Below, one piece after another: positions 33,203 through 40,100 of a DNA stretch of 64,000 nucleotides; the first letter of the stretch is position 1, and the number at the start of each line of letters is the position of its first letter. The translations under genes were made by a program, and so were the position numbers. The stretch is taken from contig JAMLGT010000002.1 of assembly GCA_023957755.1 (NCBI GenBank), forward strand, positions 62,001 through 126,000, read 5' to 3'. Source of the stretch: Chitinophagaceae bacterium. GTDB lineage: Bacteria > Bacteroidota > Bacteroidia > Chitinophagales > Chitinophagaceae. The notes under the pieces are model-generated. The model was not told the origin of the DNA. It searched no databases and was given only the letters and a program-made list of their open reading frames with translations.

Positions 33203-33415
33203 ATGAAAAAAGTATTCGCAGTATTAGCAGTTTCTGCTTTCCTGTTCGCTTGCAACAGCGGCGCTGAATCAACTGAATCAACTGAAGCTCCTGCTACAGA
33301 ACAGGCTGCTCCTGAAGCTCCTGCAGCACCTGCTACAGATTCTGCTGCTACAGCTGCTCCTGCAGACTCTGCTGCTACCGCAGCTCCTGCTGCAGCTCCT
33401 GAAGCTGGAAAATAA
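33203..33415 (+). CDS. Small Ala/Pro-rich lipoprotein
   Basis: The 70-residue precursor has a lipoprotein signal peptide with Cys17 as the lipidation site (FLFAC). The mature 54 residues are low-complexity: 22 alanines with many Pro, Thr, Ser and Glu, no aromatic residues and a terminal Lys. A 27-nt tandem repeat (33338-33364, 33365-33391) encodes DSAATAAPA twice. It is probably a disordered outer-membrane- or envelope-tethered peptide of unknown function. It is divergent from the sigma operon, shares its candidate promoter motif, and has its own terminator. Confidence 0.8.
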   Translation: MKKVFAVLAVSAFLFACNSGAESTESTEAPATEQAAPEAPAAPATDSAATAAPADSAATAAPAAAPEAGK

Positions 33416-33473
33416 GAGATTATTTATTTCTTATAGTCTTTCAGATTATTTTTTGAAAGGCAATCTAAAAAGG

Positions 33474-33503
33474 CCACTTCACATTGAGGAAGTGGTTTTT
33501 TTT
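33474..33503 (+). terminator. Rho-independent terminator of the small lipoprotein gene
   Basis: CCACTTC (33474-33480) pairs with GAAGTGG (33489-33495), followed by eight T. Confidence 0.88.
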
Positions 33504-33610: not shown

Positions 33611-33640
33611 TTTGTAATTAAAATTTGTCTATTACTTTTG
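33611..33640 (+). promoter_or_regulatory. Promoter of the aromatic amino-acid operon
   Basis: TTTG (33611-33614), an 18-nt spacer and TACTTTTG (33633-33640) match both elements of the Bacteroidota promoter. It places the transcript start within a few bases of the leader-peptide ATG at 33649. Confidence 0.75.
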
Positions 33641-33648
33641 ACCCCGAA

Positions 33649-33741
33649 ATGAACAAGACAAAGGCGCATAACTGGTTTTACTTTAGCTACTTTTTTAGCT
33701 TTTACTTTAGTAACAGCCGGGATCGTCTTGTTGTAAGATAA
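33649..33741 (+). CDS. Aromatic leader peptide (Phe/Tyr/Trp attenuator)
   Basis: This 30-codon frame starts with ATG 8 bases after the -7 element and ends with TAA at 33739-33741. Residues 9-20 read WFYFSYFFSFYF: six Phe, three Tyr, one Trp and two Ser. The operon that follows makes Phe and Tyr and supplies chorismate. The arrangement is that of leader peptides which sense charged tRNA by ribosome stalling. If the ribosome stalls within codons 9-18, the segment 33716-33723 stays free. If it reaches the stop codon it covers that segment. The peptide itself probably has no other function. Too short for ordinary gene finders. Confidence 0.85.
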   Translation: MNKTKAHNWFYFSYFFSFYFSNSRDRLVVR

Positions 33742-33775
33742 ACTGAAATTAGAAACAAGTAATATGAATCCCGGC
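33716..33775 (+). promoter_or_regulatory. Antiterminator hairpin of the aromatic attenuator
   Basis: GCCGGGAT (33716-33723, inside the end of the leader frame) is complementary over 8 bp to ATCCCGGC (33768-33775). CTTGTT (33727-33732) pairs with AACAAG (33754-33759) as a second, inner stem. Forming this structure uses the 5' arm of the downstream terminator, so the two are mutually exclusive. Confidence 0.78.
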
Positions 33776-33796
33776 ACAAAAAGCCGGGATTTTTTT
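33767..33796 (+). terminator. Attenuator terminator in front of pheA
   Basis: AATCCCGGC (33767-33775) and GCCGGGATT (33783-33791) form a perfect 9-bp stem with a 7-nt loop, ending in six T (33791-33796). The pheA ATG follows at 33802, so the terminator serves the leader transcript and not an upstream gene. Confidence 0.9.
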
Positions 33797-33801
33797 GTAT
33801 T

Positions 33802-34650
33802 ATGAAAAAGAAAATAGCCATTCAGGGATACGAAGGATCCTTTCACCAACTTGCAGGAATTGAATATTTCGGAGAAGACTTTGAGCCCATCTGTTGTGCT
33901 TCGTTCAAGGAAGTGGTGAATCAGGTAAAGAATAATCCTGATTGCTATGGGGGAGTGATGGCTATAGAAAACTCCATTGCCGGTAGTATTTTACCAAACT
34001 ATAATCTCATATCCAGGTCAGGATTGCAGATACCCGGCGAAATCTATTTGCAAATAGACCAGAACCTTCTGGTGAATCCGGGTGTGAGGCTGGAGGATAT
34101 TCACGAAGTACACTCACACCACATGGCATTGTTGCAGTGTGCTGACTTTTTGGAGACCAGGCCCTGGCGATTGATCGAGACTGAAGATACCGCGCTGAGT
34201 GCCTATCACGTACACAAGACCAAGACCGGGTGTATTGCTGCCATAGCCGGAGCCTTTGCAGCAGAGAAATTTAACCTGGAGATTTTGAAAGGTAATATCC
34301 AGACCGAGAAAAATAATTATACCCGCTTCTGGATACTTCAGAAAGAGTTACATCTGAATAAAGATGCGGACAAAGCAAGTATGGTATTTCAGACCGACCA
34401 CTCTAAAGGAAGCCTTGCGCGGGTACTTACCAAAATATCTGATTGTGGAGTGAATCTGAGCAAACTTCAATCAATGCCCATACCGGGAAGCGACTGGCTT
34501 TATGCATTCCATGCCGACTGTGAATTTGCTGATCTAGCTCAGTGGGAAAGCCTGCTTGAAGCTATAAAGCCATTTATTGCAGATGTATTGGTATATGGTG
34601 TTTATAGAAATGGAAAACTTCATAAAAACTGCGATTTAAATAATGCCTGA
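33802..34650 (+). CDS. pheA: Prephenate dehydratase
   Basis: The enzyme converts prephenate to phenylpyruvate. The 282-residue monofunctional protein has a dehydratase domain (about 3-185: IAIQGYEGSFHQLAG, GGVMAIENSIAGSI, ETEDTALSAYHV, and NYTRFWIL, whose Thr-Arg-Phe is catalytic). A C-terminal ACT domain (about 195-275) is expected to bind Phe for feedback control. In the ACT domain the usual ESRP is replaced by QSMP (LSKLQSMPIP). The chorismate mutase needed upstream is fused to the DAHP synthase in the same operon. It overlaps the aminotransferase gene by 8 nt. Confidence 0.95.
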   Translation: MKKKIAIQGYEGSFHQLAGIEYFGEDFEPICCASFKEVVNQVKNNPDCYGGVMAIENSIAGSILPNYNLISRSGLQIPGEIYLQIDQNLLVNPGVRLEDIHEVHSHHMALLQCADFLETRPWRLIETEDTALSAYHVHKTKTGCIAAIAGAFAAEKFNLEILKGNIQTEKNNYTRFWILQKELHLNKDADKASMVFQTDHSKGSLARVLTKISDCGVNLSKLQSMPIPGSDWLYAFHADCEFADLAQWESLLEAIKPFIADVLVYGVYRNGKLHKNCDLNNA

Positions 34651-35842
34651 AACAATAAAATTGAAAATGGAAATGGATATTAGAGTAGCGGACCGGCTAG
34701 GCACAGTAGAAGAATACTATTTTGCGCGTAAACTCCGCCAGATAGATCAGATGAATAAAGAAGGAAGGCAGGTTATCAATCTGGGGATTGGCAGTCCTGA
34801 CCAGCCCCCACATCCTGAGGTGGTACGCACACTTAGCGTGGAAGCATTAAAGCCTAATACGCACGGATATCAAAATTATAAGGGGCACCCTGCATTGCGG
34901 CAGGCAGCAGCAGCATGGTACCAGAAATATTATGGAGTGGAATTAAATCCGGATACGGAAATATTGCCTTTGATTGGAAGTAAAGAAGGTATCATGCATG
35001 TTTGCATGACCTATATCAATCCGGGCGATAGGGTTTTGATACCCAATCCCGGCTATCCTACTTATAGGAGTGCAGCCACTATCGCAGGAGCAGAGGTGCT
35101 GGCCTATTCTCTGAAAAAGGAGCACAATTGGGAACCTGATTTTGATGAGTTGGCTATGTGGGCAGCAAGGGGAGTGAAACTCATGTTTGTCAATTATCCT
35201 CAGATGCCTACAGGCAAAGTGCCCGACAGGCAATTGTTTGAGCGATTAATTGCCTTTGCGAAGGAGCACCATATCCTCATTTGCCATGACAACCCATACA
35301 GCTTCATTCTCAATGATAACCCTATGAGTATGCTCTCGATTGAAGGGGCTAAGGAGGTGGTGATAGAACTTAATTCACTCAGCAAGAGCCATAATATGGC
35401 AGGATGGAGGGTAGGGTTTGCAATGGCATCAGCCACACGCATCGGTGAGGTGATGCGGTTTAAGAGTAATATGGATAGCGGTATGTTTTTGCCGTTGCAA
35501 CTTGCAGCAGCTAAGGCGCTTTCGCTTGGTGATGAATGGTACAGTCATGTGAATGAGGTGTATAGGAAAAGGCGAGAACTGGTATGCCAGCTCCTCGATG
35601 TGATAGGAGCAAAATATGAAAGAAAACAGGCGGGATTATTTGTGTGGGCAGCGATTCCGGAAGTGTATGAATCGGGATATGAATTAAGTGATAAGATTTT
35701 GGATAGCAGTAATGTATTCATCACCCCCGGTGGTATTTTCGGAGATGCAGGTAACCAATTCATACGTGTAAGCCTCTGTGTAAGTGAAGAAAAGATCAGA
35801 GAGGCAATTGAAAGAATCAGGAACAACTTTATTGACAGATGA
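34643..35842 (+). CDS. Class I/II pyridoxal-phosphate aminotransferase (probable aromatic)
   Basis: The 399-residue fold-type I enzyme has INLGIGSPDQPPHPEV near the N terminus, PNPGYPTYRSA, VNYPQMPTGKV, HDNPYSFI, the PLP lysine Lys248 in LNSLSKSHNMAGWRVGF, and RVSLCVSEEKI with the carboxylate-binding Arg. Its place between prephenate dehydratase and prephenate dehydrogenase points to the last step of Phe and Tyr synthesis, transamination of phenylpyruvate and 4-hydroxyphenylpyruvate. Sequence alone does not exclude an LL-diaminopimelate-like activity. It overlaps both neighbours. Confidence 0.88.
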   Translation: MPETIKLKMEMDIRVADRLGTVEEYYFARKLRQIDQMNKEGRQVINLGIGSPDQPPHPEVVRTLSVEALKPNTHGYQNYKGHPALRQAAAAWYQKYYGVELNPDTEILPLIGSKEGIMHVCMTYINPGDRVLIPNPGYPTYRSAATIAGAEVLAYSLKKEHNWEPDFDELAMWAARGVKLMFVNYPQMPTGKVPDRQLFERLIAFAKEHHILICHDNPYSFILNDNPMSMLSIEGAKEVVIELNSLSKSHNMAGWRVGFAMASATRIGEVMRFKSNMDSGMFLPLQLAAAKALSLGDEWYSHVNEVYRKRRELVCQLLDVIGAKYERKQAGLFVWAAIPEVYESGYELSDKILDSSNVFITPGGIFGDAGNQFIRVSLCVSEEKIREAIERIRNNFIDR

Positions 35843-36681
35843 GGACAATTGGAATTATAGGTACAGGGTTAATAGGAGGTTCAATGGCATTGAAGCTTCG
35901 GGAGAAGGGGTTTGCTGACAAGTTTATTGGCGCGGACACCGACGAGCATCATGCACACAGGGCTGTAGAACTGGGTTTGGTCGACAAGACGGGGTCTGTA
36001 GATGAATTAATTGCGCAGTCAGACATCATCGTCATTGCAATCCCTGTGGTGGCCACCGAAAAAATGTTGAGTAAGGTGTTGGACAGTGCCGAAGGGAAGG
36101 TGGTGCTGGATGTGGGATCTACAAAAATGTCATTGTGTGAGTCAGTGAAGAACCATTCTAACCGGCAAGCTTTTGTGGCCACGCACCCTATGTGGGGTAC
36201 CGAATACAGTGGGCCTGATGCGGCTACCCGTATGAGTTTTGAAGGTAATGTGGTGGTGATATGCGATAGAAACCTATCGGGGAAGCAAGCCCTTGGCCTG
36301 ACTGAAGAAGTTTATGATGCACTGGGGATGAAGATAGTGTATATGGATTCTGAAGCCCATGATTTGCATGCTGCCTATGTGAGCCACATTTCGCACATCA
36401 CTTCATTCGCATTAGCTAATACAGTATTAGAGAAGGAGAAGGAGGACAGCGCTATTTTTCAGATGGCGAGTGCAGGTTTTGAGAGCACGGTCCGACTGGC
36501 AAAAAGCAACCCTGATATGTGGCTGGCTATTTTTAAGCAAAACCGGGAAAATGTACTGGACGTATTGAATGAACATATCACCCAGCTAAAGAAGTTTAGA
36601 AGTTGCTTTGAGAAAGACAACTATGAATACATGCATGAGCTTATGGAGAATGCCAATAAAATTAAACGAATTATTAAATAG
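35839..36681 (+). CDS. tyrA: Prephenate dehydrogenase
   Basis: TyrA oxidises prephenate to 4-hydroxyphenylpyruvate with NAD(P)+. The 280-residue protein has the Rossmann motif GIIGTGLIGGSMALKLRE at the N terminus, VLDVGSTKMSL, the catalytic-histidine region ATHPMWGTEYSGPDAA, and HDLHAAYVSHISHITSFALA. No ACT domain is present. Its ATG overlaps the aminotransferase stop (ATGA), and the next gene begins 7 nt after its stop. Confidence 0.95.
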   Translation: MRTIGIIGTGLIGGSMALKLREKGFADKFIGADTDEHHAHRAVELGLVDKTGSVDELIAQSDIIVIAIPVVATEKMLSKVLDSAEGKVVLDVGSTKMSLCESVKNHSNRQAFVATHPMWGTEYSGPDAATRMSFEGNVVVICDRNLSGKQALGLTEEVYDALGMKIVYMDSEAHDLHAAYVSHISHITSFALANTVLEKEKEDSAIFQMASAGFESTVRLAKSNPDMWLAIFKQNRENVLDVLNEHITQLKKFRSCFEKDNYEYMHELMENANKIKRIIK

Positions 36682-36688
36682 CATACTA

Positions 36689-37777
36689 ATGACACAACAA
36701 ACCGAGACAATGACGAAGAACCTTACCGATATCTGGGCTAAACGTCCCCTGATTATCAGCGGCCCATGCAGTGCCGAAAGCGAAGAACAAGTACTCACTA
36801 CAGCCCGTGCACTTGCATCTACAGGAAAAGTAGATGTGTTGCGGGCAGGAATTTGGAAACCTCGTACCAAACCCGGGATGTTTGAGGGTATTGGCGTGAA
36901 AGGGTTGCCCTGGCTTGTGAAGGCAAAGCAGGAAACCGGTTTGCCCATTGCCGTCGAAGTGGCCACAGCCAGACACGTGGAAAATGCGTTGCAGTTTGAT
37001 GTGGATATACTCTGGATAGGTGCACGCACTACAGTGAATCCGTTCAGCGTACAGGAAGTGTGTGATGCATTGAAGGGAACCAATGTGCCGGTGCTTATTA
37101 AGAATCCGGTAAATCCTGATCTTGAACTGTGGAGTGGAGGAATTGAAAGACTCATCAAAGCAGGTGTAAAGGAAATCGGAATGATACATCGTGGGTTTTC
37201 AAATTTTGGGAATACCGAATTCAGGAATGCGCCCATGTGGCAACTGCCTATCGAAATGAAAAGAAGATATCCTGACATGTTATTGGTATGTGATCCTTCC
37301 CATATCTGTGGTAACCGTACGGGACTGGCTTCTATTTCGCAGAAGAGTATTGACCTCGGTTTCGGAGGTTTGATGATAGAGTCGCATGTGGATCCGGACA
37401 ATGCATGGAGTGATGCCAAGCAGCAAATTACTCCGCAAGTGCTTCTGGAAATGCTGGATCATTTGGTATGGCGCGAAGAGAGTAGCGATGAAAAAGAATT
37501 CCTGAATGCGCTGGCTAAATTAAGAGAGCAAATCAATCAGATCGATGATGAACTTCTTTCACTCATCGGTCAGCGAATGAAAGTAGCAGATAAGATTGGG
37601 CAATACAAAAAAGAAAATAAGATAACTATCTTGCAGACCAACCGTTGGAATGAAATTCTGGCCAAAGCCTTTGAGAAAGGAGAAAAGTTTGGGCTCAGCA
37701 AAGATTTTGTTACCAGGTATTTTGATGCGATCCACATGGAAAGTATCAATCACCAAAATAAAATAATGAATGACTAA
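36689..37777 (+). CDS. Bifunctional 3-deoxy-7-phosphoheptulonate synthase / chorismate mutase
   Basis: The 362-residue protein performs the first step of the shikimate pathway and the chorismate-to-prephenate step. The DAHP synthase domain (about 15-260) shows RPLIISGPCSAESEEQV, RAGIWKPRTKPGMFEGIG, GARTTVNPFSVQE and CDPSHICGNR. The C-terminal AroQ-type mutase (about 270-355) shows LREQINQIDDELLSLIGQRMKVADKIGQYKKENK. The frame continues upstream into tyrA (to 36608), but ATG 36689 is the sensible start. The mutase domain may also provide feedback control, as known in related DAHP synthases. Confidence 0.94.
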   Translation: MTQQTETMTKNLTDIWAKRPLIISGPCSAESEEQVLTTARALASTGKVDVLRAGIWKPRTKPGMFEGIGVKGLPWLVKAKQETGLPIAVEVATARHVENALQFDVDILWIGARTTVNPFSVQEVCDALKGTNVPVLIKNPVNPDLELWSGGIERLIKAGVKEIGMIHRGFSNFGNTEFRNAPMWQLPIEMKRRYPDMLLVCDPSHICGNRTGLASISQKSIDLGFGGLMIESHVDPDNAWSDAKQQITPQVLLEMLDHLVWREESSDEKEFLNALAKLREQINQIDDELLSLIGQRMKVADKIGQYKKENKITILQTNRWNEILAKAFEKGEKFGLSKDFVTRYFDAIHMESINHQNKIMND

Positions 37778-38804
37778 GAAGGAAGTGGTGCCATTCAGAT
37801 TTTCTGACAAAGAGGTGCAGTGTCTGTTTGGAGTAACCTTTGATGATATTAGAGAGAGGCTCTCAGACAAGAGAGTAGTCTGGATTACTGATGAACACTT
37901 TTATACAAAATATCCGCAGGACTTTCCCGCAGGCCAGTGTATTATATTACCTGCCGGAGAAGCGCATAAGACGCAGGAAACGGTGGGAAGAGCCATAGAC
38001 GAACTTTTGAATATGGAAGCCGACCGCGAAGTATTTCTAATGGGAGTAGGAGGGGGTGTGGTGACTGATATGGTGGGCTATATCGCTTCCATTTATTTGC
38101 GTGGTGTGAAGTTTGCTTTTGCACCTTCCTCTGTGCTGGCAATGGTGGATGCCGCAGTAGGTGGCAAGAATGGGGTTAATGTGGGATTGTTTAAAAATCA
38201 GGTAGGGGTGATCAGGCAGCCTGAATATTTATTCTATAATTTCTCATTTCTTCATACGTTGCCTGAACTGGAATGGATTAGCGGGTTTGCAGAAATCATA
38301 AAGCATGCCTGTATCCATGATGCGGAGATGTTCCGGTTTTTGTGGAACAACAGTCTGGAAGATTTCAGAAAAGATCTATCGGTAACGGGGGAGCTGATAC
38401 GTAAGAATGCAGAATTGAAATTCAGTGTAGCTTCAGGCGATGAGCGGGAGAGCGGACAGCGCAGGTTGCTCAACTTTGGGCATACTCTCGGGCACGCCAT
38501 TGAGAATATCACAACGATGCCACACGGATTTGCCATCAGCATAGGGATGGTGTTTGCATGCAGATTGTCAGAGAAGCTGGAAGGCTTTGATCCTGAAAAG
38601 ACAGAGTGGTTGATCCAATTGTTGAAGAAATATCATCTTCCTGTAGAGGCAGATTATAGTAAGGAAAAAGCATGGGATATACTCGTGCATGACAAAAAGA
38701 AGTCGGGCGACTCGATTCATTTCATTTTACTGAAAGATATCGGGGAGGGGGTAGTACATTCCCTTTCGCTGAGCGAGTTGAAAAAATTATTCTTTGAAAT
38801 GTAA
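37770..38804 (+). CDS. aroB: 3-dehydroquinate synthase
   Basis: AroB cyclises DAHP to 3-dehydroquinate, the second step of the shikimate pathway. The 344-residue protein contains GGGVVTDMVGYIASIYLRGVKFAFAPSSVLAMVDAAVGGKNGVN (NAD-binding and metal/substrate site), GFAEIIKHACIHD, and LLNFGHTLGHAIE with zinc-ligand histidines. Its start overlaps the end of the upstream gene by 8 nt. Confidence 0.95.
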   Translation: MTKKEVVPFRFSDKEVQCLFGVTFDDIRERLSDKRVVWITDEHFYTKYPQDFPAGQCIILPAGEAHKTQETVGRAIDELLNMEADREVFLMGVGGGVVTDMVGYIASIYLRGVKFAFAPSSVLAMVDAAVGGKNGVNVGLFKNQVGVIRQPEYLFYNFSFLHTLPELEWISGFAEIIKHACIHDAEMFRFLWNNSLEDFRKDLSVTGELIRKNAELKFSVASGDERESGQRRLLNFGHTLGHAIENITTMPHGFAISIGMVFACRLSEKLEGFDPEKTEWLIQLLKKYHLPVEADYSKEKAWDILVHDKKKSGDSIHFILLKDIGEGVVHSLSLSELKKLFFEM

Positions 38805-38813
38805 CTGTTTATA

Positions 38814-40100
38814 ATGCAGGTTAAGATTCATCCATCCTCATTAATGGGGAGTATTCAGGCCCCGCCATCGAAGAGTTGTACGCAACGTGCCTGCGCAGCG
38901 GCTTTAATAAGTGAGGGTAAGACTATTGTTGAAAATATTGGAAACAGTAACGATGAGATGGCTGCTGTAGATATTATACGCCGGTTGGGGGCTGAGGTAA
39001 CGGTGAAGGGTAATCGGTTAGCTGTGGTGTCAGGCAGCAATATTTTCAAGTGTGGAAATCCTAATGAGAGCCGGATAGTGGATCCCGGTGAAAGTGGCCT
39101 GAGCATGCGGATGTTTGCCCCTATAGCAGCGTTATTCAACTTTGATATCACCTTCACAGGTAAAGGAAGCCTGGTACAACGCCCGATGGATTTTCTGAAT
39201 ACCTATCTCCCCAAACTGGGCGTCACAGTCTTTTCTAACAATGGTAAATTGCCTATCACGATCCGCGGCCCCTTAAAACCTCAGGAGATTACTGTGGCAG
39301 GTGGCCTGAGCTCTCAATTCCTTACCGGGATGTTATTTGCGTATGCCCGTGCAGTGACGAGCCCTATTATCCTGAGAGTGGATAACCTCATGAGCAAACC
39401 TTACATCGATCTTACCCTTGATGTATTGAGAAAATTTGGCTTTAGGGTAACCCATCAGGATTACAAACGGTTCGAACTGCTTCCCTATAAACCAGTAGCA
39501 GGAAGTGTTATTAAATACAAGGTGGAAGGCGACTGGAGCAATGCGGCTTTTCTATTAGTCGCCGGCGCTATAGCAGGGCCGGTAGCAGTGCGGGGAATGG
39601 AGATGGATTCGGTTCAGGGCGACCGTGAAGTGATGAATGCCCTATATCAGTGTGGTGCTGAAGTAAAGATTGGCCGGGGGGGAATCATAGTGAATCCCGG
39701 AGAACTGAAGGCATTTGAATTTGATGCCACGCACTGTCCTGATCTCTTTCCTCCGTTAGTGGCCCTTGCCTCCTACTGTAAAGGACGTACTATTATTCGC
39801 GGAGTGACGAGGCTGCTTCATAAAGAAAGTAACAGGGCACTGGCACTCAGAGAGGAGTTCCGAAAGATGAATGTAAATATTATCCTTGACGGAGATATTA
39901 TGAAGGTTGATGGGGCTGACCAGGTAATGGGGGCCAGAGTGTCATCACATAATGACCACAGAATGGCTATGGCTTGTGCGGTAGCGGCTCTGAAGGCAAA
40001 AGGTATTACACAGATAGCAGGTGCTGAAGCAGTAGATAAATCCTACCCTGAATTCTTCGAAGACATGATGAAACTTAAGATGCAGGTTTCAAAAATATAG
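38814..40100 (+). CDS. aroA: 3-phosphoshikimate 1-carboxyvinyltransferase (EPSP synthase)
   Basis: AroA joins shikimate 3-phosphate and phosphoenolpyruvate. The 428-residue protein has PPSKSCTQRACAAALI at the N terminus, DPGESGLSMRMFAP in the PEP-binding loop, GLSSQFLTGMLFAYA, EGDWSNAAFLLVAGAI and DHRMAMACAVAALKAKG near the C terminus. The PEP-loop sequence differs from the enterobacterial NAGTAMRPL type. It is the last gene of the aromatic operon. The other shikimate genes (aroE, aroK, aroC and dehydroquinase) are not in the window. Confidence 0.94.
   Translation: MQVKIHPSSLMGSIQAPPSKSCTQRACAAALISEGKTIVENIGNSNDEMAAVDIIRRLGAEVTVKGNRLAVVSGSNIFKCGNPNESRIVDPGESGLSMRMFAPIAALFNFDITFTGKGSLVQRPMDFLNTYLPKLGVTVFSNNGKLPITIRGPLKPQEITVAGGLSSQFLTGMLFAYARAVTSPIILRVDNLMSKPYIDLTLDVLRKFGFRVTHQDYKRFELLPYKPVAGSVIKYKVEGDWSNAAFLLVAGAIAGPVAVRGMEMDSVQGDREVMNALYQCGAEVKIGRGGIIVNPGELKAFEFDATHCPDLFPPLVALASYCKGRTIIRGVTRLLHKESNRALALREEFRKMNVNIILDGDIMKVDGADQVMGARVSSHNDHRMAMACAVAALKAKGITQIAGAEAVDKSYPEFFEDMMKLKMQVSKI

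Follow-up and report, generated by a model that had tools for sequence, protein, structure and literature searches.

The window analyzed here, a stretch of 64,000 nucleotides (nt) from a Chitinophagaceae bacterium (assembly GCA_023957755.1, contig JAMLGT010000002.1, positions 62,001 to 126,000 of the forward strand; positions below count from its first letter), carries six consecutive genes of aromatic amino acid synthesis, beginning with pheA and continuing with genes for an aminotransferase, TyrA, a DAHP synthase/chorismate mutase fusion (DAHPS/CM), AroB and AroA. Directly ahead of pheA lies a short leader that encodes a peptide dense in Phe and Tyr and ends in an intrinsic terminator. The original prediction, made from the letters of the sequence alone, had proposed that this leader is a ribosome-mediated attenuator responding to Phe and Tyr. 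We compared the locus with its relatives and conclude that it very likely is a ribosome-mediated four-strand transcription attenuator, one that would sense charged tRNA-Phe and tRNA-Tyr and control pheA-aminotransferase-tyrA-DAHPS/CM-aroB-aroA.

The two boxes of a Bacteroidota-type promoter stand 18 nt apart and the leader ATG begins 8 nt past the −7 box, so that transcription is predicted to start at about 33642-33646 and to leave a 5' untranslated region (UTR) of only a few nucleotides. Promoter and 30-codon frame were both borne out as they had been proposed, the aromatic run occupying residues 9 to 20. The 9-bp terminator just before pheA also stood, but its T-run is of seven T (33790-33796) instead of six, two of them inside the stem, and the pheA ATG follows five nt past it. 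Only 1 of 200 dinucleotide shuffles folded as well as the native sequence (z −2.8), and the triple repeat CCGGGA..TCCCGG..CCGGGA occurs a single time in the 3.67-Mb genome of this organism, at the pheA leader. Coordinates are collected in Table 1.

Table 1. Features of the pheA leader and of the operon behind it, in window positions.
Feature	Position	Strand	Details and basis
Bacteroidota-type promoter	33611..33640	+	TTTG 33611-33614, TACTTTTG (TAnnTTTG) 33633-33640; read from sequence
Leader peptide open reading frame (ORF), 30 codons, MNKTKAHNWFYFSYFFSFYFSNSRDRLVVR	33649..33741	+	ATG start, TAA stop 33739-33741; counterparts in relatives
Strand 1	33652..33682	+	Within codons 2-12; folding, 1:2 swap test
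Putative regulatory run W-F-Y-F-S-Y-F-F-S-F-Y-F (WFYFSYFFSFYF)	33673..33708	+	Codons 9-20 of leader; read from sequence
Strand 2	33709..33732	+	Core GCCGGGAT 33716-33723 and CUUGUU (DNA CTTGTT) 33727-33732; in last leader codons
Strand 3	33754..33775	+	AACAAG 33754-33759 and 33768-33775 (ATCCCGGC in DNA, AUCCCGGC); pairs with strand 2 or 4
Intrinsic terminator GAAUCCCGGC / GCCGGGAUUU (strands 3:4) and T-run	33766..33796	+	−16.9 kcal/mol
Strand 4	33783..33792	+	Includes GCCGGGATT 33783-33791
pheA, prephenate dehydratase	33802..34650	+	NCBIfam PRK11898.1 1.4e-49, under curated cut-off; first gene under the predicted control
PLP-dependent aminotransferase	34643..35842	+	Overlaps pheA; assigned to aminotransferase class only
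tyrA, prephenate dehydrogenase	35839..36681	+	PRK08507.1 4.7e-109, above cut-off
DAHP synthase/chorismate mutase fusion	36665..37777	+	Residues 14-267 DAHP synthase, 283-364 chorismate mutase, both under curated cut-offs; start codon tentative
aroB, 3-dehydroquinate synthase	37770..38804	+	TIGR01357.1 2.1e-93, above cut-off
aroA, 3-phosphoshikimate 1-carboxyvinyltransferase	38814..40100	+	TIGR01356.1 1e-99, above cut-off

Judged from its predicted pairings, the element has all four strands of a classical attenuator, and strand 1 supplies the part that was missing: the original prediction had recognized the alternative structures but overlooked this strand in codons 2 to 12, which folding brings out. 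A piece of strand 1, AACAAGAC at 33652-33659, forms 8 bp with GUCUUGUU at 33725-33732, while the minimum-energy register pairs 33657-33682 with 33709-33732. Taken each alone, the pairings have energies of −20.5 (1:2, the value of the leader ORF folded by itself), −20.5 (2:3) and −16.9 kcal/mol (3:4), and the medians over 143 relatives are −17.1, −18.4 and −18.3. The locus has each sequence component of an attenuator, namely a leader ORF with regulatory codons, a terminator, an antiterminator exclusive of it, and a 1:2 pairing that overlaps leader codons.

The leader is conserved well beyond this genome. A PheA match was present in 24 of the 39 relatives and 137 of the 194 family genomes (the 15 and 57 without a PheA match were set aside), which gave 150 upstream regions, 147 from the family and 3 from other families of the order, and a leader was scored as a short frame with at least 6 Phe, Tyr or Trp in 12 residues. 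Such a frame precedes pheA in 143 of the 150 loci, compared with 13 of 150 in each of the two controls, reverse complements and dinucleotide shuffles; when at least 9 aromatics in 12 residues are required, 104 loci qualify and neither control yields any. A terminator lies 3' of the leader stop in all 143 loci versus 1 of 143 shuffled spans, and the same search, applied upstream of the leader promoter, finds one in 55 of 143 stretches, at the end of the preceding gene. The scan reached about 500 nt upstream of PheA (590 in the 40-locus spread sample described below), so leaders before an earlier operon gene would escape it, and it favors certain start codons, overlooked leaders being visible by eye in L041 and L210. 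Seven loci were missed, L021 to L023, L026, L041, L087 and L117, among which the leader of L026 is interrupted by N and that of L041 is present by eye with a GTG start. Genome rows G165, G142, G074 and G102 and the fragments G211 and G207:C118 were excluded, and L024 and L025 were omitted as fragments of the same gene as L026.

The pairings themselves co-vary. In a swap test on 90 representatives, the helix formed within each locus was compared with helices in which one strand had been exchanged between loci, over 2000 permutations. None of the permutations was as good as the native arrangement for 1:2 (own 15.98 vs 13.45 swapped), 2:3 (19.37 vs 16.84) or 3:4 (26.37 vs 20.44), whereas for 1:3 and 1:4, where no pairing is expected, 1792 and 1595 of 2000 were. 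With duplex energies that allow bulges (83 representatives), 1:2 and the distal part of 2:3 (CTTGTT/AACAAG) again gave 0 of 2000, against 908 of 2000 for the control. The terminator core is other than CCCGG in 17 loci, and strand 2 is usually changed in step; such loci shift strands 2, 3 and 4 jointly, as with GATCGGGT in L120 and AGGCGGGA in L150 and L151. The 1:2 pairing occurs in unlike versions, AACAAGAC/GTCTTGTT here and ACAAAAGC/GCTTTTGT, GCAAATACA/TGTATTTGC or TTACAAATACT/AGTATTTGTAA elsewhere, so the conservation of the peptide ends (TKAY..., ...GMLLL, ...VVFAKA) may largely be that of pairing. The antiterminator that had been read from the sequence, core and distal part alike, is upheld by the 2:3 result, in the distal part with bulges allowed. 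Comparison with relatives had been set beforehand as one of two tests that could refute a Phe/Tyr attenuator, and it found the frame and the alternative pairings both conserved. A chance origin of the element is rejected on the basis of the shuffle folds, the unique triple repeat, the swap tests and the scan controls.

Several observations weigh against this interpretation. The swap tests leave some relatedness between loci in, a point on which the 1:3 and 1:4 controls bear. With ungapped helices only 66 of 143 loci exceed the 95% shuffle level for 1:2, and for distal 2:3 only 2 of 143 do, which is a failed test; the distal signal emerges only with bulges allowed, in a second test of one question after the failed ungapped one. 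Among the 17 loci with nonstandard cores, L108, L125, L128 and L138 have no convincing 2:3 helix and L136 and L143 are borderline, and in 9 of 143 loci the best 2:3 partner starts 8 nt or less from the end of the stop codon or past it, outside the leader body. Neither scan nor eye found a leader in L087 (one of two copies in its genome), L117 or L220, and none was found in L021 to L023, single genomes that represent families f2, f3 and f14 within the same order. Finally, the equilibrium fold of the window RNA past the stall point still prefers the terminator, so that antitermination must be kinetic, with the antiterminator made first; in classical attenuators, too, the antiterminator wins through earlier synthesis.

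We hypothesize the following course of events. RNA polymerase would initiate a few nucleotides before the leader ATG, and a ribosome would load immediately. When Phe-tRNA or Tyr-tRNA is short, the ribosome would halt in the aromatic run, from codon 9 onward, and hold strand 1 off strand 2, which could then capture strand 3 ahead of the synthesis of strand 4; the terminator would not form and the operon would be read. When both tRNAs are plentiful the ribosome would reach the stop codon and mask part of strand 2, and on its departure strand 1 would take strand 2, leaving strands 3 and 4 to form the terminator. If the leader went untranslated, 1:2 and 3:4 would both form and the operon would be off. 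We infer the response to starvation, the transcription start and the read-through from the sequence, and the codon-level conservation described below points to translation of the leader. One step of the earlier proposal, that a ribosome at the stop codon covers the strand 2 core, is doubtful: with the stop codon in the A site, the trailing edge of the ribosome would lie near 33722, and the ribosome would mask CUUGUU but hardly the core, strand 1 taking the rest afterwards. Measured back from the end of the stop codon, the core starts at 17 to 35 nt in 129 of 143 relatives (26 here), a spacing that implies full masking in some relatives and hardly any in others.

Which amino acids are sensed can be addressed from the codons. 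In 36 disjoint close pairs of leaders, 70 to 99% identical, the 99 differences at Phe or Tyr codons comprise 36 synonymous changes, 34 exchanges between Phe and Tyr and 29 others, while the remaining codons of the same pairs show 56 synonymous and 192 nonsynonymous changes. By arithmetic, about 2/9 of random base changes in TTY or TAY would be synonymous or exchange Phe and Tyr; changes in the run are mostly of these two kinds, which indicates that the run is conserved as "Phe or Tyr". Because Phe and Tyr codons swap freely, a shortage of either alone would probably be enough to open the operon.

An alternative that we regard as unlikely is that the leader senses Phe alone, or general translation stress, with the Tyr codons present only as neighbors of Phe codons in sequence space. 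TTY and TAY are indeed one base apart, Phe outnumbers Tyr (means of 5.8 and 3.54 per leader), and ribosome halts of other origin would act through the same pairings. Tyr is nevertheless present in 142 of 143 leaders (Trp is in 24), exchanges between Phe and Tyr are about as frequent as synonymous changes, and tyrA lies within the operon. The only leader free of Tyr, that of L108, seems to have no tyrA nearby: L108, on a contig of equal length, is seemingly the same place as L257, where neither an aminotransferase gene nor tyrA occurs in the 2.3 kb between pheA and the end of the contig. This is a single, weak case for a link between Tyr and tyrA, in a leader that also has no clear antiterminator, and L220, with no leader and no tyrA detected, points the same way. 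Against a strict link between Tyr codons and tyrA stands L249, in which the aminotransferase gene and tyrA are missing, yet the leader has two Tyr.

That the aromatic frame instead encodes a functional small membrane-type protein, with a terminator that merely ends its transcript, is very improbable. Being hydrophobic and aromatic, and having a promoter and a terminator to itself, the peptide would fit such a role, but it varies freely outside the Phe and Tyr codons (the 192 nonsynonymous against 56 synonymous changes above), its two ends are linked to each other through base pairing, and it has been duplicated in tandem in two lineages with a terminator-like hairpin after each copy; position is no argument either way, as the frame was sought only upstream of pheA. 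Least probable of all is a T-box or riboswitch that binds uncharged tRNA or a ligand directly, the ORF being incidental: a long structured leader ahead of an amino acid operon might suggest one, but conservation tracks the codons, and no such family appears in the window at gathering score or, at E up to 10, among the 27 matches around the leader, so this identity was rejected.

The predicted near-leaderless start recurs in relatives. An exact TAnnTTTG, following the Bacteroidota promoter consensus of PMC7366714, lies no more than 45 nt ahead of the leader start in 125 of 143 relatives versus 8 of 510 control stretches, most commonly at a distance of 7 nt from the ATG. If a −33 TTG is required as well, 102 of 143 leaders have a promoter, 83 of these within 10 nt; the same requirement gives 43 of 999 control ORFs a promoter, 1 within 10 nt, and 31 of the 43 lie about 140 to 169 nt away, probably from pheA genes behind leaders of their own. 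In other families the exact box is found in 6 of 24 loci and the gap is longer, 17 to 24 nt. Near-leaderlessness, taken from the promoter motif and not from mapped ends, thus looks like a trait of the Chitinophagaceae. Such short 5' UTRs are uncommon elsewhere: in Bacteroides thetaiotaomicron about 3.7% of 5' UTRs are under 10 nt (PMC7366714), and 5.5% leaderless transcription is given for Flavobacterium psychrophilum (PMC9723704).

The original prediction called such an element unusual, a judgment that does not hold for its group: it is widespread across the class. A search of the phylum found PheA in 172 of 198 genomes. The 24 best loci from beyond the family, 22 of them in the class and 2 in other classes, all have a leader, as do 78 of 80 named loci by scan, plus L210 by eye, making 79; the named loci overlap the first set (e.g., L198 and L015), so this count is not independent of the 143 of 150. 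A further 40 loci picked for spread have leaders in 5 of 5 cases in family f17, 2 of 2 in f20, 0 of 3 in f23 and 2 of 30 in other classes (a 70-amino-acid [aa] TTG frame in L286 passed the filter and was left uncounted). Leaders are seen in six of the nine sampled families of the class, f1, f17, f18, f20, f23 and f24, and not in f2, f3 and f14. In the three leaderless f23 loci, L269, L271 and L282, pheA apparently lies directly behind aroA (by eye), and the head of the operon, perhaps with a leader, should be further upstream.

The four carriers in other classes, L159, L161, L272 and L273, have a PheA that scores on a level with members of this class (E 2.2e-94 or better), while the best other-class PheA locus without a leader has 7.7e-77. 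In three of the carrier families (f48, f33 and f30; the fourth is f42) second genomes lack the leader (L276, L296, L277 and L287). These four are either transfers of the operon together with its switch or contaminated assemblies.

Two aromatic leaders in series occur in 6 of 294 loci, which are not all distinct, belonging to two lineages: L111, L133, L149, L160, L164 and L255 (Chitinophaga japonensis). Each tandem leader is followed by a terminator-like hairpin, a weak one in the case of the first L164 leader and a middling one for the second leaders of both L160 and L164, and in L111, L133, L149 and L255 the first leader ends in F-W-Y-Q-K, so that Trp is added. On balance we incline toward viewing the element as an old Phe-or-Tyr attenuator of the class, with interchangeable codons, near-leaderless in Chitinophagaceae, doubled in series in Chitinophaga-like genomes and one other lineage, and traveling with its operon into other classes.

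The six-gene order of the window is kept in 47 of the 80 named loci, some of them with other DNA inserted between tyrA and the DAHP synthase gene; in about 23 of the 33 remaining loci, the locus itself or its contig stops before the end of the operon, and the operon seems to differ in L188, L218, L220, L224, L249, L257 and L260. Immediately upstream of the leader region is a small frame of 70 aa (33203-33415), rich in Ala, Pro and Glu and lipoprotein-like, with a terminator-like hairpin downstream of it at about 33470-33500.

The genome studied here encodes other candidate leaders, both found by eye. Upstream of hisG (L303, contig C12) lies a His leader, MYLITLHHHHHHSCIQAS, with a hairpin and T-run behind it, and upstream of trpE (L304, contig C34) lies a Trp leader, MKVQNTYNSWWWQTMKTIVP, whose terminator-like hairpin, CCCCGG/GCCGGGG, likewise has a T-run. 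The former has no Rfam match at E up to 0.1, and the latter none to Bacteroid-trp (RF01692) or any other family at the same limit. No obvious leader was seen at the homoserine dehydrogenase gene L306 or at the ILVD_EDD genes L307 and L308, the first genes of those operons not having been sought, and the locus of a second homoserine dehydrogenase gene, L305, contains no upstream DNA. With His and Trp leaders besides that of pheA, attenuation seems to be a habit of this genome. The core pattern CCGGGA..TCCCGG..CCGGGA has 74 matches in 44 of 117 family genomes (3 for the reversed control pattern), of which 30 are the pheA leader by position. The other 44 are at different places, a single tandem array accounting for 14 of them, and another kind of gene may carry the core. 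Some of the matches away from pheA resemble terminators with an upstream repeat and could be more switches. The pattern also led to a 42-base tandem array on contigs C29, C44 and C136 of genome G077, whose unit contains TCCCGGACGTCCGGGA.

How far such elements have been described before can be judged from the literature. A 2010 article (PMC2965389) describes leader-peptide attenuation as shown only in Proteobacteria and Actinobacteria and then adds Firmicutes, and short ORFs reminiscent of leader peptides are mentioned for Bacteroidota in PMC7366714. The 2021 transcriptome of F. psychrophilum (PMC9723704), which also reports Bacteroidota genes without Shine-Dalgarno sequences, gives strong clues for leader-peptide attenuation at amino acid operons and a structured, conserved pheA 5' element with no Rfam hit in this species and other Flavobacteriaceae, so that the earlier statement that nothing of the kind is described in this group was not quite right. 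That element shares phylum and gene with ours and is a candidate homologue. The uORFC-13-1 motif before aroF (PMC8632094) resembles our leader in placing an upstream ORF with at least 1 Phe codon and a terminator before a DAHP synthase gene, and differs in comprising 24 sequences with a ribosome-binding site and a possible −10/−35 promoter; none of the words Bacteroid, Flavobacteri and Chitinophaga appears in the main text of that article. Bacteroid-trp (RF01692) is listed as a probable cis-regulatory RNA of Bacteroidetes (Table 1 of PMC2864571), its name suggesting trp genes, and is not one of the 27 matches found around the pheA leader at E up to 10. Our literature search, with supplements and most subscription journals outside its reach, found no description of a Phe and Tyr leader in Bacteroidota. 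The kind of switch is textbook, and it is widespread in the class and hardly described there; as far as the search shows, the novelty lies in four strands that co-vary, Phe and Tyr that replace each other, a near-leaderless start within a single family, leaders in tandem and a distribution across the class.

The element is a candidate RNA family absent from Rfam 15, and no Rfam family scores above threshold at the leader. Sub-threshold cis-regulatory matches near it (Phe_leader, leu-phe_leader, Trp_leader, PyrR, rimP, S15, rnk_pseudo and a plant-virus internal ribosome entry site [IRES]) are all far below their thresholds. As a Bacteroidota attenuator it would show how a ribosome can keep up with RNA polymerase when translation begins almost at the 5' end, and it predicts how a large bacterial group tunes its supply of aromatic amino acids.

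Among classical systems, the enterobacterial thr and ilv leaders have a single leader sense two or three products of one pathway; they are alike in this multi-product sensing, while their amino acids and operons differ from those here. Their counterpart by gene is the enterobacterial pheA leader, whose family Phe_leader (RF01859) scores 25.4 bits (E 0.14) at this locus, short of the 55-bit gathering score, and membership was rejected on that ground. Compared with it, the Chitinophagaceae leader mixes Phe and Tyr codons, stands before an operon that includes tyrA and shikimate genes, and would be transcribed from a near-leaderless start.
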